Assembly: GCA_012518555.1 (NCBI GenBank)
Contig: JAAYRW010000045.1
Location: forward strand, 1-56,644
From: Tissierellia bacterium
GTDB taxonomy: Bacteria; Bacillota; Clostridia; Tissierellales; Sedimentibacteraceae
DNA: 56,644 nt
Direction of reading: 5' to 3'
Part shown: positions 29,158-44,038 of the stretch, one piece after another
Numbering within the stretch: the first letter of the stretch is position 1
How the letters are laid out: the number at the start of each line of letters is the position of its first letter
Notes under the pieces: generated by a model
The model's database searches: none
The model's input: only the letters and a program-made list of their open reading frames with translations
What the model was told of the DNA's origin: nothing
Position numbers and translations under genes: made by a program

Positions 29158-31311
29158 TTATTGTAAGTCTTTGACTACTTCTATTAATTCCGGTAAATCC
29201 ATCTTTATTTCTTTTAAATATTCTATCTTTGGAACTCCCTTTGAATTCCATCCTCTTCTTTTGTAAACTGCATCCATCAGTTGCTCATATTGATCTTCTC
29301 TATATTTTCTTAATTGCGCAATTTTTTCTTCAGTAGTCTTACCTTCTATATGGTATCCTATTTCCTTTAATTGTTTATCGTACCTTTCTTGTCTGGATTC
29401 ATATTCTTCCTTAGTTACGGGACCCATGGAGCGATAGGGGGCTTTATCGTCCTTTCTTAAACCCTTACCCATTCTTATGTTGAATATTTTCTGGAAATTA
29501 TATACTCTTTCAGATTCTCTTATCATGTCTGAAACTTTTAATCTTTTGCCAGTTACGCCATAGGCTACGTCCAAGTAATTTTGTACGTGCTCAGGAACTT
29601 TAGCTGGCTCATCAGTATATTGGTTACCTTCAGGGACTATATCATTCCATGGAAGTTTACAAAATCCGTACAAGCCAAACCAAGTTCTAAACATAGGGAA
29701 GTAATGCAATGCTTCTGCCTTATCTTCAAAAGTAGGTAGCTGGTTGTTTACCATATCCATAAAAATCAACCAAGCTTCATCATGTTGGGGACCCTTATTT
29801 GTAAAACCGTATCCTCCTTGTTGAGCAAGAGATTCTTTAGAAACATACTCTGAATATTCAAGTCCTTTTTGCTCCATTCCTATATCGAATAAAAAGTCTG
29901 CGTCGGCTCCGTATTTTTCCACAAACATTTTTTTCATTCTGTGAACACCTTGACCTATGACCGTTCCAAAACCTTCACCTCTTGACATTTGGTGAAGAAG
30001 TTCTACGGCTGTTTCAAAGTTACCGAAATTTAATTCTAATCCTCCAGTAGCTTCTTTATTAATTATAGCTCTTCCATAACATTCCATTGCAAAAGCAGTA
30101 GCAGTACCGAAAGAAATAGTATCTATACCGTAAGTATCACAGTAGAAGTTTAGTTCCAATATTGCTGCTGGGTCAAAAATTCCGCAGTTTGAACCTAAGC
30201 CGGCAGCATTTTCATATTCGGGACCGTCAACAGTAACTTTCTGTCCTTTGTAAGGTCCTGTTTTTAAGGTAAAGTTATCAGCTGCCTTAGCACAAGCCAT
30301 AGAACATCCATACCAGCAACCGTCTTGAACACCTTGAGTAATATATTTTTCAATAAATACAGTGGACTTTATTTTTTCAGTGTCGGGATGGCTACCATAT
30401 TGAAAATTCATTACAGGCAATAAATCGTATTCATCCATTACCTCAATAATATTTGCAGTTCCTATTTTACGCATATTATTTTGAAGATGGTCTAAATCAT
30501 GAATTTCCTTATGGTATTTTATTCCTGTTTTATTTATTATAGATTGATCGTAAGCGTTGTTTAAATTACCCTTTACATTACTGAATTTTACAACTAGGGC
30601 CTTGATTTTCTTGTTACGAAATACCGTCCCTATTCCACCTCTACCAGCTTGTTTAAGCCTGGTTGTTTTTCTTCTTGGGTCATAAAATGAAAAATTCAAC
30701 AAGCCCATACGAGTATGTTCCGCTCCTGTACCTGCAGTTACAACGGCTACATTTCTTTTGTCATCTTCGTTATCCGCGTACATTTCCGTAAGCTGTTCTC
30801 CTAAAATATGACCGTCTACGGCTTCTAAAGGTGCTTCTTCAATTGTAACTACTCCCTTATTTCCATCTATGTATACAATAATATCATTGTCAGCTTTTCC
30901 TTGTACCTCAAGAGCATCCCAACCTGCAAACTTCAGTAAGGGTCCAAAATAACCTCCTACATTTGAATCTATGGGAATACCTGTCAAAGGAGAAATACTG
31001 CAAACTAATGATTTTCCCGTACCAGCATATTGAGTAATACCACAGGCAGGTCCTCCTGCAATAACTATTTCGTTTTCCGGACTATCCCATTTTGTAGAAG
31101 GACTTGTTGCATTCCACAAATACCACAGACCGAAACCTTTACCTCCTACAAATTTTTCTTTCATAGTTTCAGTTACAGGTTTTGAACTTATAGTGTTATC
31201 GGAAATATTTACATACAAAGTTCTATTTGCATATCCTCTTTCTATTTTACCAAGTTCATATTTATATTCTGCCAACAACTTATGGCTTTCTCTCATTTTT
31301 TTAATATCCAT
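29158..31311 (-). CDS. Aldehyde:ferredoxin oxidoreductase family enzyme (YdhV-like length)
   Basis: 717 residues, longer than classical AOR (about 605) and close to YdhV-type members. An AFOR N-terminal domain (about 20-230) starts after GYANRTLYVNIS, with GGKGFGLWYLWN and GGPACGITQYAGTGKS for cofactor contact. The [4Fe-4S] cysteines are probably CWYGCSMAC (near 330-338) and the Cys in LYGFCKLPWND (near 560). The enzyme would oxidise an aldehyde or reduce an acid with a W/Mo-bispyranopterin. It follows a ferredoxin by 2 bases and precedes a MoaD-like gene. The substrate is unknown. Confidence 0.88.
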   Translation of the reverse strand: MDIKKMRESHKLLAEYKYELGKIERGYANRTLYVNISDNTISSKPVTETMKEKFVGGKGFGLWYLWNATSPSTKWDSPENEIVIAGGPACGITQYAGTGKSLVCSISPLTGIPIDSNVGGYFGPLLKFAGWDALEVQGKADNDIIVYIDGNKGVVTIEEAPLEAVDGHILGEQLTEMYADNEDDKRNVAVVTAGTGAEHTRMGLLNFSFYDPRRKTTRLKQAGRGGIGTVFRNKKIKALVVKFSNVKGNLNNAYDQSIINKTGIKYHKEIHDLDHLQNNMRKIGTANIIEVMDEYDLLPVMNFQYGSHPDTEKIKSTVFIEKYITQGVQDGCWYGCSMACAKAADNFTLKTGPYKGQKVTVDGPEYENAAGLGSNCGIFDPAAILELNFYCDTYGIDTISFGTATAFAMECYGRAIINKEATGGLELNFGNFETAVELLHQMSRGEGFGTVIGQGVHRMKKMFVEKYGADADFLFDIGMEQKGLEYSEYVSKESLAQQGGYGFTNKGPQHDEAWLIFMDMVNNQLPTFEDKAEALHYFPMFRTWFGLYGFCKLPWNDIVPEGNQYTDEPAKVPEHVQNYLDVAYGVTGKRLKVSDMIRESERVYNFQKIFNIRMGKGLRKDDKAPYRSMGPVTKEEYESRQERYDKQLKEIGYHIEGKTTEEKIAQLRKYREDQYEQLMDAVYKRRGWNSKGVPKIEYLKEIKMDLPELIEVVKDLQ

Positions 31312-31313
31312 TA

Positions 31314-31742
31314 CTACCTCCTAAAAACTTCGTCCAATTTCAATTCCCTTGCTTCATCATCACTTTTTTCATCTATGTAGATAGCGCCAGTAGGGCATTC
31401 TTTAACACATAGACCACAGGCTATACACTTGAAAGGCTCTATATAGTCATCATGCTGTCTCATAGATAGTTGAGGACAGAAACCAACACACATAAAACAA
31501 CCTACACAAATTTTCTTATCGATCCTAACTACACCTAGCTTGTCCCTTTTTATTGCGACTACAGGACATATATCTATACATTCTCCACATTGATTACAAA
31601 CATTAATTTCAGGGTCACCCTCTTTGTTTATTTGAATACATGATTTTTCATAATTGTCTTCCTTGAAATAGGTCTTTGAACATACAGTCTCACAGTTTCC
31701 ACACTGGATACATTTACTATTATCTTTTGCTAAATACTTCAT
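31314..31742 (-). CDS. Ferredoxin-like protein with four [4Fe-4S] motifs
   Basis: 142 residues with four full Cys motifs: CIQCGNCETVC (near 15), CNQCGECIDICP (near 49), CVGCFMCVGFCP (near 79) and CIACGLCVKECP (near 101). It probably carries electrons to and from the aldehyde oxidoreductase encoded 2 bases downstream, like YdhY/AorA-type partners. GGGAGG supports the start. No membrane segment or signal is seen, so it is cytoplasmic. Confidence 0.9.
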   Translation of the reverse strand: MKYLAKDNSKCIQCGNCETVCSKTYFKEDNYEKSCIQINKEGDPEINVCNQCGECIDICPVVAIKRDKLGVVRIDKKICVGCFMCVGFCPQLSMRQHDDYIEPFKCIACGLCVKECPTGAIYIDEKSDDEARELKLDEVFRR

Positions 31743-34003: not shown

Positions 34004-34453
34004 TTATTCTTTAACAACTATAACTGGACATGGGGCTTCTGAAATAACCCTTTGAGTTACTGAGCCTATGAAAAATCTTGTAATTTTAGAATATCCTCTT
34101 CGTCCCATTACTATATAATCATATTTAGATTCGTTAGCTATTTTCAATATTTCTTCATAAGGTTCTCCTACAACAACTATCTTTTCAAAATTGATCCCTT
34201 CAATATTTAATTCATCTAAAAACTTATCAATCATTTTTGTTTCCAATTCCTTGGCGTTATTTACTATATCGCCATAACTTTTTTCAACTCTAAACCTCAT
34301 ATCACCATACCTGTACAAATCCGGTACAGCTGCTACTGTAACAAAAGTAATTTCACTATCGTTTTTTTTAGCTATACTAACAGCCCTTTCTGCAGCCTTC
34401 CTTGAAGCCGCCGAACCGTCAATAGGTACTAATATTTTTTTAATATCACTCAT
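34004..34453 (-). CDS. Universal stress protein, UspA family
   Basis: 149 residues from ATG 34453, chosen because AGGAGG lies 7 bases upstream; a longer frame from 34498 has no such site. It starts KKILVPIDGSAASRKAAERA. The ATP-binding signature GRRGYSKITRFFIGSVTQRV (near 125) matches the G-2x-G-9x-GS pattern, so it probably binds ATP. It is transcribed alone, between the oxidoreductase cluster and the small membrane protein. Role in stress is a family statement only. Confidence 0.9.
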   Translation of the reverse strand: MSDIKKILVPIDGSAASRKAAERAVSIAKKNDSEITFVTVAAVPDLYRYGDMRFRVEKSYGDIVNNAKELETKMIDKFLDELNIEGINFEKIVVVGEPYEEILKIANESKYDYIVMGRRGYSKITRFFIGSVTQRVISEAPCPVIVVKE

Positions 34454-34601
34454 GGGCGGGCCTCCTTCGAAATATATTTGTATTAAACTTATACCCAAAG
34501 AAATAGCCCTTTAAACATAGAGACAAGCTAAAAGTCACTAGCTAATTCACACTGGTCTTTTAAGGCATATAGGGGACAATAGCAGAAAAGGCAGTTAAAG
34601 G

Positions 34602-34641
34602 ATTCAAAGCATAAAGCCAATATTGGCTTTATGCTTTGAAT
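34602..34641 (-). terminator. 40-bp perfect palindrome after the oxidoreductase operon
   Basis: Each arm is 20 bases, ending in the centre CCAATATTGG, with no mismatch. The palindrome begins at the last base of the stop codon of the 4Fe-4S protein gene. Only a weak U-rich stretch (CCUUUAACUGCC) follows on the minus strand, so it may be a terminator, an mRNA-stabilising hairpin or a cruciform. Confidence 0.65.
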
Positions 34642-35147
34642 TATGAAACAGTTATTCTCTTTATATTTACAACTTCTTCAAAGTATTCTTTGGGATATTC
34701 AATAGTAATGATGGCGGTACGATCATTAGATTTTGGATTACGCACTCTTATTACTTTAGCTTCACAAACATACTTTCCATGTCTTGTTACTGCCTCAACT
34801 CTAGTTCCTACCTCAGGAAGTGGATAGTATTCATATGGAAATGACAGTAGGACCATGTTTTCACTATAGTTATAATCCTTTATATAAATTGCTAAACCGG
34901 GACATGCTGCTATGCACATACCGCAAGCAATACATTTTTCGAAGTCCATCTTAGGTAAATTTGTAATTTGTTTACCGATTTTTATTGCCCCTTGGGGACA
35001 GGAAGCCTCACAGGGATTACATGGAATTTCTTCTATACACTCAATTATTGCAATAGGGCCTTTATGAATATCTTCCTCTGTTGGAAAACCTGGAGAATTA
35101 TGAAGTTCCTTTAAGGAAGGAGCCCCTGTAGTTTTTAATGATTCCAT
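34641..35147 (-). CDS. 4Fe-4S dicluster protein of the dehydrogenase complex
   Basis: 168 residues. Two ferredoxin motifs are present: CIEEIPCNPCEASCP (near 36-50) and CIACGMCIAACP (near 72-83). A C-terminal beta-rich domain (about 95-165) has no cysteine pair. This two-part form occurs beside HcnB/LhpA-like flavoproteins and is the likely electron exit of the complex. It overlaps the flavoprotein gene by 13 bases and is last in the operon. A perfect palindrome starts at its stop codon. Confidence 0.8.
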   Translation of the reverse strand: MESLKTTGAPSLKELHNSPGFPTEEDIHKGPIAIIECIEEIPCNPCEASCPQGAIKIGKQITNLPKMDFEKCIACGMCIAACPGLAIYIKDYNYSENMVLLSFPYEYYPLPEVGTRVEAVTRHGKYVCEAKVIRVRNPKSNDRTAIITIEYPKEYFEEVVNIKRITVS

Positions 35148-36244
35148 TTAATCACCTCTTTTCCCTTTTGTAACATAGAATCTTTTGAAGTACGGCGTCT
35201 CTCTCCAAAATAGCCGCTTCTTAGTGAATTAAGACTATCCCATATTTCATTAGAACGAGCTCTAGCTTCTTCTTCAGAAATATATCCTAATTCAGTAGCA
35301 ACATTTATGCCGGCTAATCTTCCTTCTTCCATGGCAGTACTAGCTTCTTCTATTCCGGATATGTCCCCAGCAAGGAATATATCCGGCTGTGTTGAACGCA
35401 TTTTATCATCGTGAATAGGTAAATGACCACCTAAAGCATGAACATAATTAAATTTACAACCTGCAAGCCAGGCTAATTCCGTAAGAGGAGTTAATCCTGT
35501 GGCTAAACAAACCGTATCTACTTCTAGTATACGTTCCGTTCCGGGAATTTGCTTAAATGAACTGTCTAATTCAACTATTTCAACAGCTTCCACATGATCT
35601 TTTCCAAAAGCAGTTTTTATTGTGTGAGAAACATATAGGGGAACACCTGCTCTGGCTACTTTTGCCGTATGGACTCCATAACCACCTAACTTAGGGGCTG
35701 CTTCCAAAATAGCAACAACCTCTGCTCCAGCCTGTAAAAGCTGGTAGGCAACTATTACTCCCACATTACCAGAACCTAACATTACTACCTTTTTACCAGG
35801 TAGTACCCTATTAACGTTTATCATAGTTTGAGCTGCACCGGCTCCCATTACACCTGGAAGTTCCCAACCTTTAAAAGCTACGGCATTTTCTGTTGCACCA
35901 GTAGCAAGAATTATTTTCTTAGCCTTTACAAGTTCGCTACACTTTCTATCTCGTACAACCCATAGATTTCGTCCCTCTTCTATACCGCAAACTTCTCCCT
36001 TAAGCCAAGTTTCTATACCCAATTCTTCACTTTCTTCCAAAAGTGTACTAGCTATATTCATTCCTCTAATTCCTGCCTTATGATCTCGGGAACCGAAAAA
36101 TTTATGTATCTGTTTAAACAACTGTCCTCCAGGTCGGGAATTTTCATCTATAAGCAAGACTTCAACTCCGGCCTTCCGTGCTTCTATAGCTGCCGAAAGC
36201 CCTGCAGGCCCCGCTCCTACTATTGCTAATTCCGTTTCATACAT
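35135..36244 (-). CDS. FAD/NAD-binding oxidoreductase subunit (HcnB/LhpA/PDH-alpha-like)
   Basis: 369 residues. An FAD fold at the N-terminus (AIVGAGPAGLSAAIEARKAG) is followed by DENSRPGGQLFKQIHKFFGS, a second dinucleotide fold (VVMLGSGNVGVIVAYQLLQAG near 150) and the C-terminal FLAGDISGIEEASTAMEEGRLAG. It matches the large flavoprotein of hydrogen cyanide synthase, D-hydroxyproline dehydrogenase and archaeal dye-linked proline dehydrogenase. Those usually carry a C-terminal BFD-like domain; here that domain is a separate gene at 37448-37738. It probably moves electrons between the amino-acid-oxidising subunit and NAD or ferredoxin. It overlaps both neighbours. Confidence 0.85.
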   Translation of the reverse strand: MYETELAIVGAGPAGLSAAIEARKAGVEVLLIDENSRPGGQLFKQIHKFFGSRDHKAGIRGMNIASTLLEESEELGIETWLKGEVCGIEEGRNLWVVRDRKCSELVKAKKIILATGATENAVAFKGWELPGVMGAGAAQTMINVNRVLPGKKVVMLGSGNVGVIVAYQLLQAGAEVVAILEAAPKLGGYGVHTAKVARAGVPLYVSHTIKTAFGKDHVEAVEIVELDSSFKQIPGTERILEVDTVCLATGLTPLTELAWLAGCKFNYVHALGGHLPIHDDKMRSTQPDIFLAGDISGIEEASTAMEEGRLAGINVATELGYISEEEARARSNEIWDSLNSLRSGYFGERRRTSKDSMLQKGKEVIKWNH

Positions 36245-36567
36245 TACCGTTCCTCCTCAGACCAAACTCCCATACCCTTCTGGGTTGTAATTCGCATACC
36301 TTCCTCTACCTTGGTAACACAAGTACGTATATTAGGCACATCATTAACAGTCATTATGCAGTCAGTACAACGACCTATAGCACAATAAATACCTCTCGGT
36401 TTATGTTCATGAGCTGTATACCTGTTTATATGTATACCATTTGCAATTAAAGCGGCAGCAATCATTTCACCTTCCATGGCTGTAATAGGTTTATCATCCA
36501 CAAATATCTGCACTTCTTTTCCCTGTTTGCCTTCTTCTAAAATAGGATGATTAACTATTCTGTTCAT
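36244..36567 (-). CDS. (2Fe-2S)-binding subunit (HcnA-like)
   Basis: 107 residues. Cysteines in GIYCAIGRCTDCIMTVND (near 70-87), plus the Cys in NIRTCVT, match the 2Fe-2S domain of HcnA and of the N-terminus of sarcosine oxidase alpha. The N-terminal part has QIFVDDKPITAMEGEMIAAALIANG, typical of this group. It is one subunit of the flavin dehydrogenase. It overlaps dapA and the flavoprotein gene by one base at each side, so it is translated with them. Confidence 0.85.
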   Translation of the reverse strand: MNRIVNHPILEEGKQGKEVQIFVDDKPITAMEGEMIAAALIANGIHINRYTAHEHKPRGIYCAIGRCTDCIMTVNDVPNIRTCVTKVEEGMRITTQKGMGVWSEEER

Positions 36568-37451
36568 TATTTTACCTCCAAAAGTCCCAACTCAGACATA
36601 GCATCTTTTAATTCATTTATTACATTATCAGAAGGTGCAGCCAAAGGCATACGTGTAATTCCCACATCCATACCTAAAATATTAAGGGCTGCTTTTACAG
36701 GAATAGGATTTGCAGTCATAAACATTTTATCGGTAATTTTAATTAGCTTTAAATGAATTTTAGCTGCTTCTTCAACATTACCCTTTAAATAGCTTTCTAC
36801 CATATTCTTTATATCTTTGCATACTACATGGGCTGTTACAGATACAACACCGTATCCTCCTACTGCTAGGGTAGGTAGTATTTGGGCATCTTCTCCCGTA
36901 TATACGGCGAAGCCTTCTTCGGCATCACGTACTACAGTAGCAAGTTGATTTAAATCTCCGGATGCTTCTTTAAGTGCTACTATGTTAGAAATTTTAGAAA
37001 GAGCTACCGATGTTTCAGCAGTCATATTCATACCGGTACGTCCCGGAACATTGTACAACATAAGCGGTAACTTAGTCGCTTTTGCCACCTGAGCAAAATG
37101 CTGGTAAAGAGATTCCTGATTGGGCTTATTATAATAGGGAACTACTACTAGAAGGCCGTCTACTCCTACTTTTTCCGCTATAAGAGCATTCTCAATAGTA
37201 GCCTGAGTGCAATTAGTTCCTACTCCTGCAATAATTGGTACATTTACTGCCTCCTTTACAACTGTCAGTAATTTTTCCTTTTCTTCTGACGTAACTGTAG
37301 GAGATTCTCCTGTGGTTCCATTTATAACTAAAGCTGTATTCCCTTGTTCAACTAAGTGTTTAGCCAGCTCTGCCGCCTTATCGTAATTTATCTTCCCTTC
37401 AGCATCCATGGGAGTAACCATGGCTGTAATTATTCTTCCCCAGTTATTCAT
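36567..37451 (-). CDS. dapA: 4-Hydroxy-tetrahydrodipicolinate synthase
   Basis: 294 residues. It condenses pyruvate with aspartate semialdehyde in lysine, diaminopimelate and dipicolinate synthesis. Family residues are present: GTTGES (the Thr pair near 45), VVPYYNKPNQE (Tyr near 107), LYNVPGRTG (Tyr and the Arg that binds the substrate carboxylate, near 134-139) and ALKEASGD (Schiff-base Lys near 162). The whole set favours true DapA over the related hydroxyproline-pathway deaminase. It is embedded in the dehydrogenase operon, overlapping the BFD-like gene by 4 bases and the 2Fe-2S gene by 1. Aspartokinase and Asd lie upstream on the same strand. Confidence 0.88.
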   Translation of the reverse strand: MNNWGRIITAMVTPMDAEGKINYDKAAELAKHLVEQGNTALVINGTTGESPTVTSEEKEKLLTVVKEAVNVPIIAGVGTNCTQATIENALIAEKVGVDGLLVVVPYYNKPNQESLYQHFAQVAKATKLPLMLYNVPGRTGMNMTAETSVALSKISNIVALKEASGDLNQLATVVRDAEEGFAVYTGEDAQILPTLAVGGYGVVSVTAHVVCKDIKNMVESYLKGNVEEAAKIHLKLIKITDKMFMTANPIPVKAALNILGMDVGITRMPLAAPSDNVINELKDAMSELGLLEVK

Positions 37452-37738
37452 TTAGTTAATCCTCCTTCTGATTTGTTGTTATATTCTTCTATTAAATCCG
37501 ACCGTACCGGACGAACCGGCTGACGGTAACCGGATGGTTGTATTTCACTGAGAGGAGTAGCTGTCTTTTCAGACAATATCCGTTCTACCAGTCTTCTACA
37601 GGTCCGCCCTTGGCAAAGTCCCATGCCGGCTCTCGTAAAGCGTTTTATTTCATTAGTAGTTACAGCTCCATCTTCAATAGCAGCCTCTATTTCTCCACGG
37701 GAAATTTCCTCACAGCGGCATATTAATTCATCACACAT
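37448..37738 (-). CDS. BFD-like [2Fe-2S]-binding protein
   Basis: 96 residues. LICRCEEISRGEIEAAI (near 5-21) and GLCQGRTCRRLVERIL (near 56-71) provide the CxC...CxxxxC cysteines of bacterioferritin-associated-ferredoxin-like domains. In related dehydrogenases this domain is fused to the C-terminus of the alpha flavoprotein; here it is free-standing. It opens the dapA-containing operon, 49 bases after the regulator gene. Confidence 0.85.
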   Translation of the reverse strand: MCDELICRCEEISRGEIEAAIEDGAVTTNEIKRFTRAGMGLCQGRTCRRLVERILSEKTATPLSEIQPSGYRQPVRPVRSDLIEEYNNKSEGGLTK

Positions 37739-37787
37739 TTTTCTACCTCAATTTTCATAAAGTTTTACTTCAATTATTAATTTTACT

Positions 37788-38510
37788 TCAATAAAATAAA
37801 TCCCAATACTTAGTTACATCTTCAATTAAACTATCTATATGTTTAATCATACACTTTTCTGCAAGTTCAGAGTCATGTTTTTTTAAGGCTTGATATATTT
37901 CTTCGTGAGAAGTCATATAAATAGCATTTACCTGTTTTCGCACATGCTCAAATATAGTAGTTTGCTGACCGTAGCTGAAAAGCATTAAGTAGAGAGTTTC
38001 AAGAACTTTATTTCGTGAAGCTTTAGCGATTGCTCTGTGAAAAGAAATATCACTACTTGCTACAGATTCACCTGTTCTATGTCTTTCCCTTTGTTCGTCT
38101 AAAATACTTTTTATAGCAGCTAATTCTTCTCTAGTTATATTTTCTGCTGCTAGACGAGCCGTCTCTCTTTCAATGGCCTTCCGAGCTTGCAATACAATTA
38201 TATAATCTTCTAAAACTGTCGTAGAAATCATTTGCTCCAAGGTCTGAGCTTGTTCATTTAAGTAGTTAAACATTTCATGATTATTTAAGGCTTCTAAGCC
38301 ACTTTTAGTAATAACCCTACCGTTATGACCATCCTTTTTTACAAATCCTCTTCTTTCAAGGCTACTTAAAGTTCTTCCTATAGTGGCAGAACTTACGTAT
38401 TGGCCTTTTTCCTCTAGTTTTTCAACTAAATTCCAGGACCCCATAGGTCCTTGGGCAACTTTAAGGGACTCTAAAATTGCTACTTCCTTCTCCTGTAGTT
38501 TTTTTTGCAT
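37788..38510 (-). CDS. FCD-domain transcriptional regulator with NrpR-like winged helix
   Basis: 240 residues from ATG 38510, which has GGAGG 5 bases upstream. The N-terminus (about 1-70) is a winged helix (GQYVSSATIGRTLSSLERRG) more like the NrpR N-terminal or RNase R-type domain than the usual GntR one. The C-terminus (about 80-240) is an FCD ligand domain with SSDISFHRAIAKAS, TSHEEIYQAL and CMIKHID supplying metal-binding Asp and His. FCD proteins sense small carboxylic acids. It lies between the symporter and the dehydrogenase genes and is preceded by a long inverted repeat that may be its operator. Confidence 0.82.
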   Translation of the reverse strand: MQKKLQEKEVAILESLKVAQGPMGSWNLVEKLEEKGQYVSSATIGRTLSSLERRGFVKKDGHNGRVITKSGLEALNNHEMFNYLNEQAQTLEQMISTTVLEDYIIVLQARKAIERETARLAAENITREELAAIKSILDEQRERHRTGESVASSDISFHRAIAKASRNKVLETLYLMLFSYGQQTTIFEHVRKQVNAIYMTSHEEIYQALKKHDSELAEKCMIKHIDSLIEDVTKYWDLFY

Positions 38511-38531
38511 TGTATCCTCCGTTCTACATAA

Positions 38532-38593
38532 CTTTAGCAATATTGTACATATTCATGACAGAAAAATCAAGATATGTACAATATTTGCTAAAG
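38532..38593 (-). promoter_or_regulatory. Long inverted repeat upstream of the FCD regulator gene
   Basis: Arms 38532-38552 and 38572-38593 are inverted copies differing by one inserted T, around a 19-base loop. Each arm contains an ATATTGTACATAT-type near-palindrome. It fills the gap between the symporter stop and the regulator ribosome site. No U-run follows, so an operator pair is more likely than a terminator. Confidence 0.62.
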
Positions 38594-38609
38594 ACTGTAA
38601 GACTTATGC

Positions 38610-40088
38610 CTAATATACTTTTTGTACAGGATTTACATTTCCTTCACTAACAAATTTAGGATTATTATCTATGTCCTTAGTAACTAAGGATACTACTACT
38701 ATACAAACTGCAGAAGCAGCCAAAGCAATTAAAACAGCATTTGGTCCTAAAGCACTTATCTGAGAAAGTACAGCCCCAACTACTATACCTACACGGGCAC
38801 CCCAAGGTGTAACTTTACTATTTTTCTTACCCATAACTGGTCCGTCACTAGCTTCTTCCTTCCATATAAGTCCTATAACTAGTAGCGGCACTAAACCTGC
38901 ACCTGCCATTGAATAGGCTCTGGAGAACAAACTCATTATGGAAGCCGCATATATTCCCCCTATTGCTGAAAGTGCACCTATTACAACAGTTAAAGTTCTT
39001 GTTAATGAAATCATTTGCCTATCAGTAATATCCGTTTTGAAAGGTTTTATTAAGTCATTTGCAACAAGAATTGCAGCTGAATTAAGGTTAGAGTCTGCTG
39101 AAGACATACCTGCTGCTAATACTAATACAAATAGCATTATTGTAATAATCATAGGAGTTTCATTTAACATAAACCATGACATTGCCGAGTTTGCATCTAA
39201 GTCTTGATTTATGGTCATTATAATCAATCCAACTACTGCAGTTAACATAGTAAATATTATAGCAACAGAACCACCATAGAACATAGATCGTTTCGCTGTC
39301 TTAGGACTTTTTGCTGCGAAACATGGTTGCCAGTAAATCTGTGCTACTAAAATTCCTACACATCCTGTTACAAATCTGGTAATTATGTTCATAGTGTCTG
39401 TTCCTGCAAAAGTAAATAACTGTGCCTGACCTACTTCAGCTAAACGTGAACCTAAAACAGCAAAGCTGAAATCTATCTTTGAGAAGGCGAAAATATAGAA
39501 TAAGGCTCCAAAAACAACGCATATAAGACCTTGAACAAGGTCCATCCACACTAATGACAGCATACCTCCCATAGTAGTATAGAATACGAACATGGCCGTA
39601 AAGAATAATATTATGGGAACAGGGTTTGCACCTGTAAATATACTGAAAAGCTCACCGAAAGCCTTTCCTTGACCACCTACCCAGGCTATCATAATAGCTG
39701 ATGCCAACAAACCGCACATAGCTCTCGTTACTTTATCACGAGTAATCAAATCATCGATCATTTCCGGGAAAGTATTGTATGTCATCTTACCTGCCATACC
39801 GGCAAAAACTAAAGCAAATATAATTTTTGACCCTTGCTCACCTAAGATAAAAGCTAGCCAAGGCAGTCCGTTAACATAAGCACTTCCTGCATGACCCATG
39901 AAATTACCTACACCCATAATGTTAGCAAAGTGAGTGAAGAAAAGTAAGTAGAAAGGTAGTACCCCTCCTCCTATTGCGTAGTTAGCAAAACTTTCTTCCG
40001 CCTGTTTCTTTTGCTTAACGGCGATAAAGAAATAAACGACAAATAATGCAATAGTTAAAACCCAAATAACTATTCCTGCTGTACCCAT
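38610..40088 (-). CDS. Sodium:solute symporter, SSS family (PutP/PanF-like)
   Basis: 492 residues with about 13 predicted membrane helices. SSS signatures are visible, such as GMSSADSNLNSAAILVANDL (near 325), with the Ser residues of the Na site, and GQGKAFGELFSIF. SSS members import proline, pantothenate, sugars and other solutes with Na. The neighbours suggest an amino or imino acid as substrate. A 15-bp palindrome lies at 40122-40136, close to its start, and AAAAGGAG precedes the ATG. Confidence 0.88.
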   Translation of the reverse strand: MGTAGIVIWVLTIALFVVYFFIAVKQKKQAEESFANYAIGGGVLPFYLLFFTHFANIMGVGNFMGHAGSAYVNGLPWLAFILGEQGSKIIFALVFAGMAGKMTYNTFPEMIDDLITRDKVTRAMCGLLASAIMIAWVGGQGKAFGELFSIFTGANPVPIILFFTAMFVFYTTMGGMLSLVWMDLVQGLICVVFGALFYIFAFSKIDFSFAVLGSRLAEVGQAQLFTFAGTDTMNIITRFVTGCVGILVAQIYWQPCFAAKSPKTAKRSMFYGGSVAIIFTMLTAVVGLIIMTINQDLDANSAMSWFMLNETPMIITIMLFVLVLAAGMSSADSNLNSAAILVANDLIKPFKTDITDRQMISLTRTLTVVIGALSAIGGIYAASIMSLFSRAYSMAGAGLVPLLVIGLIWKEEASDGPVMGKKNSKVTPWGARVGIVVGAVLSQISALGPNAVLIALAASAVCIVVVSLVTKDIDNNPKFVSEGNVNPVQKVY

Positions 40089-40121
40089 GTTTTTTCTCCT
40101 TTTAAAATTATTTTATAATAG

Positions 40122-40136
40122 ACGATTTTAAATCGT
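40122..40136 (-). promoter_or_regulatory. 15-bp palindrome in the symporter promoter region
   Basis: ACGATTTTAAATCGT, two 7-bp arms around one base, 34 bases upstream of the symporter ATG. TATTAT lies just downstream on the minus strand, so a bound protein would cover the promoter spacer. Confidence 0.5.
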
Positions 40137-40179
40137 ACTATTTATTAGAATAGTGTTACAGTATATGCAATTTATTAGA

Positions 40180-41346
40180 TTATGAGAATCTTCTTAAATT
40201 TAACTCATCGAATCTTTTGTGATTTCCTACTCCCCTAACCATTTCTGACACAGATTTTCCCGTAATAGGCGATAGAGCTATTCCATCCCCTTCATGACCT
40301 GCTGCTATAAATAGGCCAGGAAAACCATCAACGGGGCCTATAATAGGACTTCCATCTTTTGTACCAGGTCTAAAGCCTGCCATAGTACGAATTATATTTA
40401 CCTCATTCATAATAGGGAAATATTTACGAGTTTGTTCTAACATTCTGCTTATAGCTTTAAAATTAGTAGTTTTATCAAAACCTGCATTCTCCCGGGTACT
40501 CCCTATAAGGTAGTTACCTTCGCTAGCCCTAGAAAAAGCAAATCCTAATCCAATTTCTTTATCATATTCACTTCTATCAGGCATTATGGAAGGATCATGT
40601 TTGGATGCTATGTAAGCCGCCGTCCAACAATTAGTTTCACCTATGGGAGCAATTTGTTCTGTAACTGCAATCTGACCCTTAATAGGTTTAATAGGAATGT
40701 CTATGCCTATTAATTTACCGATCTGTGCCGACCATGCACCTGCTGCAATAACGACACTGTCACATTCTACACTAAGATCGTTTTCCCCTTTAACTTCCCA
40801 GTGGTCGCCTTTTTGATTAAGCTCTTTAACAGGAGTATATCTAAATACTTCCATTCCCATTTTAAGTCCATTATGTAAAAATGCTCTCATAAGCATTAAG
40901 GGATTTACTTGGGAATCTGCACTACTATAAGTAGAGGCTTTCATGTAAGGCGCTACATGAGGTTGCTTTTTAAAAAGAGTTTTTCTACCTACTATTTCAA
41001 CATCTAAACCGTAAGAAATCTGTTGTTTTACAAAATCCTCCATTATTTTAAGTTGTTTTTCATCTTCAATAATAACCATTCCTCCCAAGGAAAGGAAACC
41101 TATATCTGTATCTAACTCATCAGGCAAGCCTCTATACATTTCTAAACTTTCCATGGCTAAGGTTAATGCAATGCCCGGCTTTTTTGATTGCAAAAGTATC
41201 ATATCGTCACAAGAACTTGAAGCACCGCTTCCTATTTCTGCTTTTTCCAAAATAGCTACCGTCTTACCAGCCTTGAGAAGGTAGTAAGCCGTAGCAAGCC
41301 CCATGACACCTCCACCTATAACACAAACATCCTTTTTTAAATTCAT
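40180..41346 (-). CDS. FAD-dependent amino-acid dehydrogenase subunit (HcnC/DAO family)
   Basis: 388 residues from ATG 41346 (GGAGG upstream). The N-terminal FAD fold is VCVIGGGVMGLATAYYLLKAG. A D-amino-acid-oxidase fold follows, with AGAWSAQIGKLIGIDIPIKPIKGQ (near 210) and the C-terminal IRTMAGFRPGTKDGSPIIGP and AAGHEGDGIALSPITGK. It is the likely catalytic beta subunit that oxidises a secondary or D-amino acid, as in HcnC, LhpB and archaeal proline dehydrogenase. It pairs with the iron-sulfur and flavin genes at 34.6-37.7 kb, although separated from them by the symporter and regulator genes. The substrate is unknown. Confidence 0.85.
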   Translation of the reverse strand: MNLKKDVCVIGGGVMGLATAYYLLKAGKTVAILEKAEIGSGASSSCDDMILLQSKKPGIALTLAMESLEMYRGLPDELDTDIGFLSLGGMVIIEDEKQLKIMEDFVKQQISYGLDVEIVGRKTLFKKQPHVAPYMKASTYSSADSQVNPLMLMRAFLHNGLKMGMEVFRYTPVKELNQKGDHWEVKGENDLSVECDSVVIAAGAWSAQIGKLIGIDIPIKPIKGQIAVTEQIAPIGETNCWTAAYIASKHDPSIMPDRSEYDKEIGLGFAFSRASEGNYLIGSTRENAGFDKTTNFKAISRMLEQTRKYFPIMNEVNIIRTMAGFRPGTKDGSPIIGPVDGFPGLFIAAGHEGDGIALSPITGKSVSEMVRGVGNHKRFDELNLRRFS

Positions 41347-41377
41347 TATCTTCCTCCGTCTTTGCACTTAGCACTTG

Positions 41378-42439
41378 CTAAGCACTAACAACAATTTTTC
41401 CAAATAAACTATTATATAAATCCTTAGCTAATAATTCAACATCCTTAGATTGAACAAATATATGTGCACATAATTCGTTAAAATATATACTGCCCTTAAC
41501 TGGCAATCTTCCTATGGCATCTTTTATACTTTCTTCATCGTATCCCCTGAAAACTACTGTTAAAAGTGAATTTTCACTTCCCGGACAAGGTCGAACTGCC
41601 TTTTTCTCTTTACCTGCTATTATTAGACTATCCCTCTCCTCAGCTTCAAACAAACTGCATTCCTTCATAAGGGCAATTCCCACAGGTCCCTCTTCTAATT
41701 TTGTATTTTTTTCTATTTTAGTACCCATTCCCTGGTGGAAGTTAGAACGAACGTATACACTTACCTTATGCTTTTTAGCTTCAGCAATAGCTCGCGGATG
41801 AACGATTGAAGCACCCCATAAAGCAAGTAAGTACATATCTTCCATATCCACATATTTCATAAACTTTGCTTCAGGAACCACCCTTGGATCTATAACCGCT
41901 ACTCCCGGAACATCGGTAAATATATGTACGGATTCTGCCTTCATAAACCCACCTATTACTACAGCAGAAGTATCACTGCCTCCCCGACCTAAGGTTGTAA
42001 CTTCCTTTCGAACACTTACCCCTTGAAATCCAGGTATAATTACTACTTTACCTTCATATAGCTCCATTTTAATACGCTTAGTATCGATATCAAATATATC
42101 TGCGCTTCCAAAAATACCATTTGTAACTATTCCTGCCTGTCCTACCGTTAAAACACTACTATCAATTCCTTTTTCTACAAGCTTATCTGCAAGTACACAG
42201 GCGGATATTACCTCTCCACAACTCATTAGTAAATCTAAATTTTCAGGTCTACTAGTTGGTTTCAATAAGGAAATAAGGGTATCTGTAGCATAGGGTGAAC
42301 CTTTACGTCCCATTGCTGAAACAACGGCTATTACATTTTTACCGGCCTCCCTTAAAGCAGCTATGTGTGAAATAGCTTGACATCGAGCCTCTTCCGTTGC
42401 CAGGGACGTTCCGCCAAATTTTACAACAACTATATCCAT
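41378..42439 (-). CDS. lysC: Aspartate kinase, shortened regulatory region
   Basis: 353 residues from ATG 42439, behind AAGGTGG; the GTG at 42448 lies inside the ribosome site. The kinase domain has VVKFGGTSLAT, the LMSCGEVISA region, GFQGVSVRKEVTTLGRGGSDTSA and FTDVPGVAVIDPRVVPEAK. The part after the kinase domain is only about 110 residues, against about 160 for tandem ACT domains in most aspartokinases, and its sequence is diverged. Feedback control by lysine, threonine or diaminopimelate is therefore probably altered. It follows asd by 17 bases and precedes the amino-acid dehydrogenase gene by 31. Confidence 0.88.
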   Translation of the reverse strand: MDIVVVKFGGTSLATEEARCQAISHIAALREAGKNVIAVVSAMGRKGSPYATDTLISLLKPTSRPENLDLLMSCGEVISACVLADKLVEKGIDSSVLTVGQAGIVTNGIFGSADIFDIDTKRIKMELYEGKVVIIPGFQGVSVRKEVTTLGRGGSDTSAVVIGGFMKAESVHIFTDVPGVAVIDPRVVPEAKFMKYVDMEDMYLLALWGASIVHPRAIAEAKKHKVSVYVRSNFHQGMGTKIEKNTKLEEGPVGIALMKECSLFEAEERDSLIIAGKEKKAVRPCPGSENSLLTVVFRGYDEESIKDAIGRLPVKGSIYFNELCAHIFVQSKDVELLAKDLYNSLFGKIVVSA

Positions 42440-42456
42440 CTTAACCACCTTGGTAT

Positions 42457-43467
42457 TTAAACTAAGTCCATTTCAATCATCTTTTCGGCTATCTGTACAG
42501 TATTTAGCGCTGCACCCTTCATTAGATTGTCTGCAACTACCCATAAATTCAATCCATTTTCCACAGTGTCGTCTTTCCTGATTCTGCCAACGAATACTTC
42601 ATCTTTACCTTCACAGTTAATTGCCATAGGGTATATATTTTGATCTAAATCGTCTAAAACTACAATACCTTTTGATTTGCTTAAAAGGTCTTTAACTTCT
42701 TCAACATCCATAGCTTTTTCAGTTTCTATATTTATAGACTCACTATGCCCTCTAAATACTGGAATACGAACAGTAGTAGCAGAAACTCTAATAGATGGAT
42801 CTAAAATTTTATGAGTTTCATTAACCATTTTCATTTCTTCCTTGGAATAGCCATTCTCTAAAAATACATCTACATGAGGTATAGCATTAAAAAGAATTTG
42901 ATGAGGATAAACACTATAAGTTACCTCTTCTCCCTGGGCGTATTGTTTCCCTTGATTTTTCAATTCCTCAATTGCTCTTTGACCACTGCCAGATACAGCT
43001 TGGTAGGTAGATACAACTATACGCTTTATATTGTATAGATCGTGTAATGGTTTCAATGCTACAAGCATCTGTATAGTCGTACAATTTGGATTTGCTATAA
43101 TTCCCTTGTTGTTAACTAAGGCTTCAGGATTAACTTCCGGTATTACTAAAGGTACATCCTCATATAAACGCCAGGCACTAGAATTATCAACAACTTTACA
43201 ACCTTCAGCTACAGCTATTGGTGCCAGTTCCAAACTTGCCTCTCCACCGGCAGAAAACAATGCAATATCTACATCCTTGAAAGCACCCGCTTTAGCCTCT
43301 TTAACGATGAACGTTTTCCCGTTGAAAGCAACTTCCTTGGATACGTTTTCTAAAATATCTAAGGGTACTAACTCATTAACAGGAAATGATCGCTTTTCTA
43401 AAATTTTAATCATCTGTTGTCCAACAGCACCCATGGCTCCCACTACTGCTACATTATATTTTTTCAT
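42457..43467 (-). CDS. asd: Aspartate-semialdehyde dehydrogenase
   Basis: 336 residues from ATG 43467, with GAGGAGG 5 bases upstream; the longer start at 43503 is not supported. The Rossmann loop is VVGAMGAVGQQM. The catalytic Cys is in IIANPNCTTIQM (near 128), the active-site Gln follows in VVSTYQAVSGSG, and the His is in RIPVFRGHSESI. It makes aspartate semialdehyde, the DapA substrate. It is the first gene of the asd-lysC-dehydrogenase transcript, driven by the promoter at 43561-43589. Confidence 0.94.
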   Translation of the reverse strand: MKKYNVAVVGAMGAVGQQMIKILEKRSFPVNELVPLDILENVSKEVAFNGKTFIVKEAKAGAFKDVDIALFSAGGEASLELAPIAVAEGCKVVDNSSAWRLYEDVPLVIPEVNPEALVNNKGIIANPNCTTIQMLVALKPLHDLYNIKRIVVSTYQAVSGSGQRAIEELKNQGKQYAQGEEVTYSVYPHQILFNAIPHVDVFLENGYSKEEMKMVNETHKILDPSIRVSATTVRIPVFRGHSESINIETEKAMDVEEVKDLLSKSKGIVVLDDLDQNIYPMAINCEGKDEVFVGRIRKDDTVENGLNLWVVADNLMKGAALNTVQIAEKMIEMDLV

Positions 43468-43528
43468 TCTCGCCTCCTCTTTATAGTACATTATATTAAG
43501 CATAATGTATATTTAAGACTACTTTTTT

Positions 43529-43554
43529 AACTACTCATCACCCGATGAGTAGTT
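43529..43554 (-). promoter_or_regulatory. 26-bp palindrome at the start of the asd transcript
   Basis: AACTACTCATC and GATGAGTAGTT around ACCC, 11-bp perfect arms. It begins about 7 bases past the -10 box, so it is both the first 26 bases of the transcript and a possible operator. Confidence 0.65.
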
Positions 43555-43560
43555 ACCTAT

Positions 43561-43589
43561 ATTGTAGCTAGCTTTATATAATTTGTCAA
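43561..43589 (-). promoter_or_regulatory. Sigma-A promoter of asd-lysC
   Basis: On the minus strand TTGACA (43584-43589), a 17-bp spacer and TACAAT (43561-43566). Confidence 0.85.
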
Positions 43590-43705
43590 TAATAATTTTT
43601 TGATTTTTAAAAGTTATTTATTTGTCATGGAAATTGGAATTTATTGCGGTAAGTGGATTGATGACCCACTATACCGCCTACATAAGAAAGGAATTCAGAA
43701 ATGAA

Positions 43706-44038
43706 TTAAAATAAAAATTGAACTTGCAGCATATAGACTAATGTTCCTGCAATAATAGACAAAAGAGTCTGTCTTTTCCATAGATGAAGCAATACTACTA
43801 CAATAATTGCAATTAATTCAGGAATACCATGGCTGCCGGTTGATATATTTACATCTTTAAGACAATACACTACCAACATTCCTAATACTGCTGGAGGGAG
43901 AACTTTACCTAAATATCGAACATATTCCGGTGTAGGTTTATCTGCAGGAAAGAGTATGAAGGGCAAAAAACGAGTCAACATGGTACTTGCTGTTACTACT
44001 AATATAATTATAATATGTTGAGGAATAGTCATTGTCAT
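43706..44038 (-). CDS. azlD: AzlD-family branched-chain amino acid transport subunit
   Basis: 110 residues with three or four hydrophobic segments and the AzlD stretch [12 protein letters not shown] near residue 18. With AzlC it forms an exporter of branched-chain or other hydrophobic amino acids. It overlaps azlC by 4 bases. Confidence 0.88.

Follow-up and report, generated by a model that had tools for sequence, protein, structure and literature searches.

A DAO-type flavin/iron-sulfur gene cluster with dapA in Sedimentibacter relatives and its possible role in dipicolinate breakdown

Gene content of the cluster

The DNA analyzed here (hereafter, the window) comprises positions 1 to 56,644 of contig JAAYRW010000045.1, all 56,644 nucleotides of the stretch, from the Tissierellia bacterium assembly GCA_012518555.1 (2.09 Mb in 176 contigs, 88% complete), whose closest named relatives by the DAO protein are Sedimentibacter and Tissierellia metagenome assemblies. 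Its minus strand carries a cluster of ten genes that joins a DAO-family flavoprotein and iron-sulfur proteins to genes of the lysine pathway. In order of reading, these encode an aspartate-semialdehyde dehydrogenase (asd, 42457..43467; asd_B 445 bits, cut-off 324), an aspartokinase catalytic domain with a degenerate C-terminus (lysC, 41378..42439; AA_kinase only, without a Pfam ACT match), the DAO-family flavoprotein, which is the presumed catalytic subunit of a complex (40180..41346; domain match), an SSS sodium:solute symporter (38610..40088; SSF), an FCD-domain regulator with an HTH_12 DNA-binding domain (37788..38510; FCD and HTH_12), a BFD-like [2Fe-2S] subunit (37448..37738; Fer2_BFD), a 4-hydroxy-tetrahydrodipicolinate synthase/lyase (dapA, 36567..37451; DHDPS, and dapA equivalog at 320 bits, cut-off 206), a plant-type [2Fe-2S] subunit (36244..36567; Fer2_4), a soxA N-terminal-like FAD/pyridine-nucleotide subunit (35135..36244; FAD/Pyr_redox_2), and a 4Fe-4S ferredoxin-like subunit (34641..35147; Fer4). 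The first-pass annotation had named these ten open reading frames (ORFs) from the letters alone, and all were confirmed in the same order and strand with matching domains; the overlaps it saw through the last five genes measure 1 to 13 bp.

The DAO protein, the soxA-like FAD protein, and 2Fe-2S subunits are encoded together, as in multisubunit dehydrogenases of the Lhp/PDH/Hcn type. LhpBEF, the archaeal dye-linked proline dehydrogenases, HcnABC, and the opine oxidases share with the cluster a DAO-type subunit, a soxA-like FAD subunit, BFD, and 2Fe-2S pieces, and the archaeal enzymes also share its ferredoxin-like subunit. The predicted structure of the DAO protein was poor (pLDDT 52.3); its sequence relatives include 1y56_B, titled sarcosine oxidase in the database, which we take to be a subunit of an archaeal proline dehydrogenase. 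This relative and the common architecture speak for a proline- or hydroxyproline-like pathway, in which D-hydroxyproline would be oxidized to a pyrroline, a DapA-family deaminase would yield 2-oxoglutarate semialdehyde, and an aldehyde ferredoxin oxidoreductase (AOR) or a kinase/dehydrogenase pair would oxidize the product. In view of the DapA, Asd, and LysC sequences described below, we regard such a pathway as improbable.

Recurrence of the unit in other genomes

The core unit (DAO flavoprotein, SSS symporter, BFD, dapA, Fer2, FAD, and Fer4, usually with the FCD regulator) was seen in 18 loci examined. Outside the window, the gene set was present in whole or large part in 10 loci at 82–92% DAO identity and in seven more at 50–55% with different flanks, and because it recurs in these 17 loci it is not a chance grouping. 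Eleven of the 18 are Sedimentibacter-type (the window and L003–L012), including the near-identical L004 and L005 as well as L007, which was counted here though it comes from another family of the class. The remainder belong to Geosporobacter subterraneus (L013 and L078, on two contigs), G164 (L030), G165 (L029), G379 (L037), G887 (L054), G971 (L055), and G1005 (L072). dapA is in place in 16 loci, the contigs of L011 and L030 ending before its position; the regulator gene (fcd) is absent from L009 and lies upstream of asd instead in L010, L012, and L037. lysC adjoins the unit in 14/18 loci and asd in 8/18 (partial in L007). The other four loci (L029, L054, L055, and L072) have an AOR gene instead of lysC, and the two never occur together within the unit. 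The arrangement of asd and lysC takes three forms: they share an operon in the window, its relatives, and G164, converge in G379, and diverge in Geosporobacter.

Of 249 genomes in the order, 15 matched the DAO at E 1e-60, and 12 of these belong to the window's genus (25 genomes). The class gave 3 matches in 391 genomes at 1e-95 and the phylum 12 in 398 at 1e-90; among the latter 12, the dapA-linked kind was confined to G887, G971, and the genome of the window. Three of four genomes in the order of G887 had a match. The dao gene of L007/L038 (G515) contains an in-frame TAG stop in a cluster that otherwise looks intact, by assembly error or decay. In G165 (L029 3878-4384) and G379 (L037 4630-5199), the cluster is followed by a flavin-reductase-like gene.

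In a phylogeny of 30 DAO proteins, a single split with 100/100 support separated the 16 proteins of the unit and that of G977 from 13 others (17/13). The 13 other-clade loci (L031–L033 and L057–L066) contain the FAD genes and mostly also Fer2, Fer4, and BFD (Pfam names tested on L056 only), with a racemase-like gene in 10/13 and a DctM-like transporter in 6/13, and none has a cluster-type dapA, lysC, or asd. Unlike LhpBEF/HcnABC-type systems, the cluster has its DAO proteins all on one side of this split, includes dapA, and is accompanied by asd/lysC or AOR genes with which it has a palindrome in common (see below). The G977 protein is a long branch of unsure placement, which groups with the DAO proteins of the unit and has the gene context of the other clade, plus a DapB-like gene. 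G225 (L032 10551-12281) encodes, next to a related DAO complex, a fusion of a TRAP transporter permease with a DapA-like domain that scores 153 bits, below the cut-off.

DapA, Asd, LysC, and AOR proteins

Residues T44, T45, Y107, Y133, R138, and K161 are kept in all 13 cluster DapA proteins aligned, and 6/6 of those scanned pass the dapA equivalog cut-off, the five relatives at 329–347 bits. Identity to the window copy is 50–59% in Geosporobacter, G379, G165, G887, G971, and G1005, and 44% for the housekeeping DapA of the window's own genome. The NPNC, Q, E/K, and R/H motifs of Asd are present in 7/7 proteins aligned. The DapA residues are catalytic and suit aspartate semialdehyde as the product, and the Asd motifs are catalytic as well. 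The LysC of the window is short (353 aa; AA_kinase 136.7 bits), with the aspartate/ATP motifs KFGGTS and GRGGSD invariant across nine aligned rows. No regulatory ACT domain, of the kind that serves feedback control, was matched at E 1e-3 in any of four cluster LysC proteins scanned; the second (housekeeping) LysC of the window's genome has one. A structure prediction of modest confidence (pLDDT 65.6) retains one ACT-like beta-alpha-beta-beta-alpha stretch in the cluster LysC, and the best fold matches of this model are aspartokinases. Its best NCBIfam match is PRK08210 (293 bits, under the cut-off of 474), presumably a DapG-type model.

These sequences bear on the hydroxyproline-like pathway: Arg138 and the dapA equivalog scores do not suit a DapA-family deaminase, Asd and LysC keep motifs that we take to recognize the aspartate skeleton, and no epimerase was noticed among the genes of the unit (no search was aimed at epimerases). 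The first-pass annotation had offered a similar option, an imported cyclic amino acid oxidized by the complex with the aspartate genes merely recruited, which leaves unexplained why 13/13 DapA proteins aligned have retained residues suited to aspartate semialdehyde as product.

Pfam places AFOR_N and AFOR_C domains in three of the four cluster AORs (L029, L054, and L055), and the fourth (L072) was assigned by its 58–65% identity to L029 and L055. They fall into two subfamilies about 30% identical, one with three orthologous members (53–65%) and one in G887, whose gene has an operator-like site 25 bp upstream. From their position and the shared palindrome, we infer that the cluster AORs act on aspartate semialdehyde (ASA), so that an Asd-LysC or an AOR module could each turn ASA into aspartate. 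In equilibrium data from the 1950s, the reaction ASA + ADP + Pi + NADP -> aspartate + ATP + NADPH was reportedly favorable. The direction from ASA to aspartyl phosphate has been termed 'nonphysiological' and compared to GAPDH (PMC3276109). The window also has a separate AOR gene (717 aa, 29158-31311), 3.3 kb beyond the downstream end of the cluster and with no palindrome nearby; its product is 26–29% identical to the cluster AORs and has its own ferredoxin-like gene alongside (29158-31742).

Promoters and a shared palindrome

A sigma-A-like promoter, TTGACA-17-TACAAT, precedes asd (43561..43589, minus strand; 11/12 positions match). It is the best of 22 sigma-70-like matches in 34400-43900; shuffled sequence gives more (mean 30.1), and by itself the match is no proof of a promoter. 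Relatives show the same layout. Just downstream of it lies a palindrome of 28 bases, TAACTACTCATC-N4-GATGAGTAGTTA (43528..43555, strand not assigned), a candidate operator of the FCD regulator, whose half-site was found by inverted-repeat searches of promoter stretches to be common to the regions before cluster genes in eight lineages. Such sites precede asd, lysC, dao, and AOR. A sigma-A-like match with two or fewer mismatches occurs in 17/21 promoter stretches (counted without a shuffle control), and in these 17 the palindrome starts 8–14 bases after the -10 box, a position suited to a repressor; start codons in this comparison were placed manually, a few of them with an error of some bases.

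When the Sedimentibacter-type half-site was scanned on seven other-lineage loci, 13 of 14 matches fell in cluster promoters (2,506 of 118,374 bases), compared to 0.09 in shuffled promoters, in a test that was not blind, as all promoters were known beforehand; in 17 comparison loci (301,891 bases), the same half-site gave five matches. The palindrome consensus had 21 matches in 616,074 bases, all before cluster genes, versus 4.6 per base-shuffled copy of the whole set, with the qualifications that the consensus was read from the same promoters it then found, that short or duplicate loci were left out, and that one match comes from L005, near-identical to L004. It had no match in L007, where the sequence starts inside asd, or in L009, the locus without fcd, which has a decayed site with five mismatches; the dao site of G165 also scores five. 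Geosporobacter and G379 each carry two sites, one at asd and one at dao; G165, G887, and G1005 likewise carry two, at dao and AOR, and L030 has two at asd. In G1005, a site extends over the mechanically called start of the AOR ORF. The spacing between half-sites is 3 or 6 bases (L013, L029, L037, L054, L055, L072, and the Sedimentibacter-type loci), and both spacings occur within G1005.

Certain half-sites carry differences that would prevent pairing in an RNA stem, in favor of an operator acting as DNA. With a common palindrome just downstream of sigma-A-like promoters, dao, asd/lysC, and AOR are predicted to form one regulon, and the co-occurrence of fcd and palindrome suggests that the FCD regulator pairs with the palindrome. 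Sedimentibacter-type loci (window 43468-43510, L003, L004, L006, and L009) also share a second leader element (TTAATATAATGTA-like), situated after the palindrome and ahead of the first gene. In L034, a contig of the window's genome, a weak 3-mismatch, spacing-4 match 41 bp before dapB was counted as chance, because its spacing is neither of the two accepted and it extends into the probable ribosome-binding site.

Dipicolinate synthesis for spores

The Bacillus subtilis order spoVFAB-asd-dapG-dapA resembles the cluster in bringing asd, an aspartokinase, and dapA together. The cluster differs in having no dpaAB of its own and no ACT match, and in its importer, FCD regulator, and sigma-A-like promoter. 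One alternative, the second option of the first-pass annotation, is that the complex aromatizes dihydrodipicolinate (DHDP) to dipicolinate (DPA) for spores, fed by its own lysC-asd-dapA. NikD of nikkomycin biosynthesis, from the same flavoprotein superfamily as the cluster DAO, forms a pyridine carboxylate, picolinate, though as a single-subunit, biosynthetic enzyme working in the oxidative direction, unlike the complex. It belongs to the PF01266 amine oxidase family (PMC6222107). SpoIVA was matched in 12/12 cluster-positive genomes of the genus, two as fragments, from which these members are probably spore formers; among them, six have no long DpaA match and seven no DpaB.

The window's own genome, however, carries dpaA and dpaB side by side outside the cluster (DpaB 277.5 bits, cut-off 229; DpaA 232 bits across its full length, under the cut-off of 320), which makes the cluster dispensable for spore dipicolinate. 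Its promoters look vegetative, with the palindrome at the start, and an importer, an FCD regulator, and an AOR would be without a role in synthesis. A spore DPA synthase was accordingly rejected as the leading explanation on the strength of the genome's own dpaA/dpaB and these promoters, and we hold it to be very improbable. Clostridium perfringens, which is without spoVF, was shown to use EtfA as its DPA synthase (PMC5104732), and missing dpaAB therefore does not call for this cluster.

Neither DpaA nor DpaB was among the best 25 families listed for the ten cluster proteins. In the genus, DpaB exceeded the cut-off in 5/12 cluster-positive genomes, including that of the window, and in 9/13 cluster-negative ones, several being incomplete; dpaAB and the cluster are thus not clearly linked. 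No DpaB match was found in G379, G515, or Geosporobacter. The DpaA model gave short matches in all 14 control genomes and passed its curated cut-off in 0/31 genomes, and DpaA was counted only where the match was long or cut by a contig end. A synthetic role in members without dpaAB is possible and is not needed to explain the cluster. Among the probable spore formers of the genus, dpaAB is patchy (DpaB over the cut-off in 14/25).

Proposed pathway and its alternatives

Flow from ASA to aspartate is favored by the presence of an importer and an FCD regulator, by the lack of a recognizable ACT domain, and most of all by AORs of two subfamilies in place of Asd-LysC. We therefore think that the pathway probably runs in the catabolic direction through DapA and ASA, and for DapA in this direction the complex must deliver DHDP or 4-hydroxy-tetrahydrodipicolinate (HTPA). 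In the scheme proposed, the SSS symporter would import a cyclic C7 dicarboxylate, most likely DPA, and the DAO/FAD/BFD/2Fe-2S/4Fe-4S complex would reduce it by two electrons to DHDP, which would hydrate to HTPA. DapA would cleave HTPA to pyruvate and ASA, Asd would oxidize ASA to aspartyl phosphate, and the ACT-less LysC would form aspartate and ATP, the last two enzymes acting like GAPDH-PGK. In other lineages, AOR would make aspartate and reduced ferredoxin in place of Asd-LysC, returning the low-potential electrons needed for DPA reduction. The FCD regulator would repress the promoters until the substrate is present.

On paper, the set is self-contained, as the complex, DapA, and Asd with LysC suffice from DPA to pyruvate and aspartate. 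The balance is DPA + 3 H2O = pyruvate + aspartate (C7H5NO4 + 3 H2O = C3H4O3 + C4H7NO4), which is redox-neutral and requires no outside electrons because Asd or AOR returns two. With fermentation of pyruvate and aspartate, the predicted overall reaction is DPA + 4 H2O = acetate + propionate + NH3 + 2 CO2. The same products are cited, without a ratio, for a DPA-fermenting anaerobic coculture (Seyfried and Schink 1990, cited in PMC9826295). With its redox-neutral balance and its prediction of the reported products, DPA fits best as the substrate, an assignment that we hold with slightly less than even confidence.

Several points weigh against DPA breakdown by the cluster. The least secure step is the reduction of DPA by a DAO-type enzyme: a strong reductant is needed to reduce an aromatic pyridine, the reaction is energetically hard, DHDP readily oxidizes to DPA, and DAO-family enzymes normally oxidize amines and act oxidatively in every case known to us. 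The same genes could run towards DPA, and we know of no DPA degrader among the 18 carriers. An adjacent asd gene is missing from six Sedimentibacter-type loci, G989 has the same SSS symporter and an orthologous AOR next to an other-clade DAO without dapA, and half-site spacings of 3 or 6 bases are not easily tolerated by one dimeric regulator. Finally, ddh lies near the cluster in 8/11 Sedimentibacter-type loci and may be co-transcribed with it in L003 and L007, where it comes after the final cluster gene and shares its strand.

The position of ddh is what the catabolism of diaminopimelate (DAP), or another precursor of tetrahydrodipicolinate (THDP), would predict. Imported DAP would be deaminated to THDP, which the complex would desaturate to DHDP, bypassing an uphill reversal of DapB, and DapA with Asd/LysC or AOR would finish the route. 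DAP from peptidoglycan is abundant in sludge, and 8/12 cluster-positive genomes of the genus have ddh (TIGR01921 454.6 bits in the window's genome). Against this route, six electrons per DAP are left over and must go elsewhere, ddh is also present without the cluster (G173 and G181), and no palindrome of accepted spacing precedes ddh or dapB in L003–L012 or L034. Moreover, no ddh match was found at E 1e-20 in the cluster-positive G164, G165, G175, G183, G379, and Geosporobacter (G175 and G183 being only 74% and 70% complete, and G887, G971, and G1005 lying outside the search), and ddh/dapB were on this basis rejected as required parts and kept as possible helpers. On this evidence, we judge DAP catabolism unlikely. 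In L034, dapB-ddh stands next to dapA2-dapB2-lysC2, and the window's genome holds two copies each of dapB, dapA, and lysC. The gene set fixes the middle and the end of the pathway and leaves the first substrate free, so the complex might convert another imported compound to the DapA substrate, such as a 4-hydroxylated DAP or a piperidine dicarboxylate; no abundant natural compound of this kind is known to us, and this option is quite unlikely.

Weighing these points, we come close to an even judgment, though just below it, that the cluster is a catabolic regulon for DPA import and breakdown in which the top of the lysine pathway is reversed. We tentatively suggest, at somewhat under even confidence, that these are genes of anaerobic DPA fermentation, in which a DAO-type flavin/Fe-S complex attacks DPA reductively, DapA cleaves in reverse, and a reversed aspartokinase makes ATP or AOR returns low-potential electrons. 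Substrate, direction, and complex assembly are deduced rather than observed. The first-pass annotation had taken the aspartate genes and the dehydrogenase as one unit and allowed for a pathway via the DapA-derived cyclic imine, which probably holds; its option of dipicolinate synthesis for spores is not supported, given dpaAB in the genome, the vegetative-looking promoters, the importer, the FCD regulator, and AOR. It had also named two contrary signs: a complete dpaAB does lie elsewhere in the genome, whereas the unit is found without lysC/asd only where AOR replaces them (4/18 loci).

Relation to known dipicolinate metabolism and significance

The DipR/dip pathway for DPA, probably an aerobic one, reportedly starts by hydroxylation. 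FadR-family regulators carry FCD domains, so that a precedent exists for an FCD protein that senses DPA. The dip cluster for DPA catabolism, with the GntR/FadR-family repressor DipR, dates from 2024 and is known here by its title in the reference list of PMC12307443. By that title, it resembles the present cluster in the proposed substrate and in a repressor of the FadR (FCD) kind; the two probably differ in the first reaction, and some overlap between them is possible. According to a 2022 paper, DPA makes up 5–15% of spore dry weight, and the exact enzymatic pathway of its fermentation has not been elucidated (PMC9826295). Among the open-licence PMC papers that our searches listed, no title or abstract opening described an enzymatic pathway for anaerobic DPA breakdown, and novelty is claimed within that scope.

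DPA must be recycled in sediments and sludge, and the cluster offers a concrete, testable gene set whose promoter is likely inducible and which is carried by a named strain, Geosporobacter subterraneus DSM 17957. If the proposed pathway is true, aspartokinase and aspartate-semialdehyde dehydrogenase would make ATP in catabolism, and AOR and Asd-LysC would substitute for each other. If the substrate were DAP instead, the cluster would still represent a catabolic use of the reversed lysine pathway.

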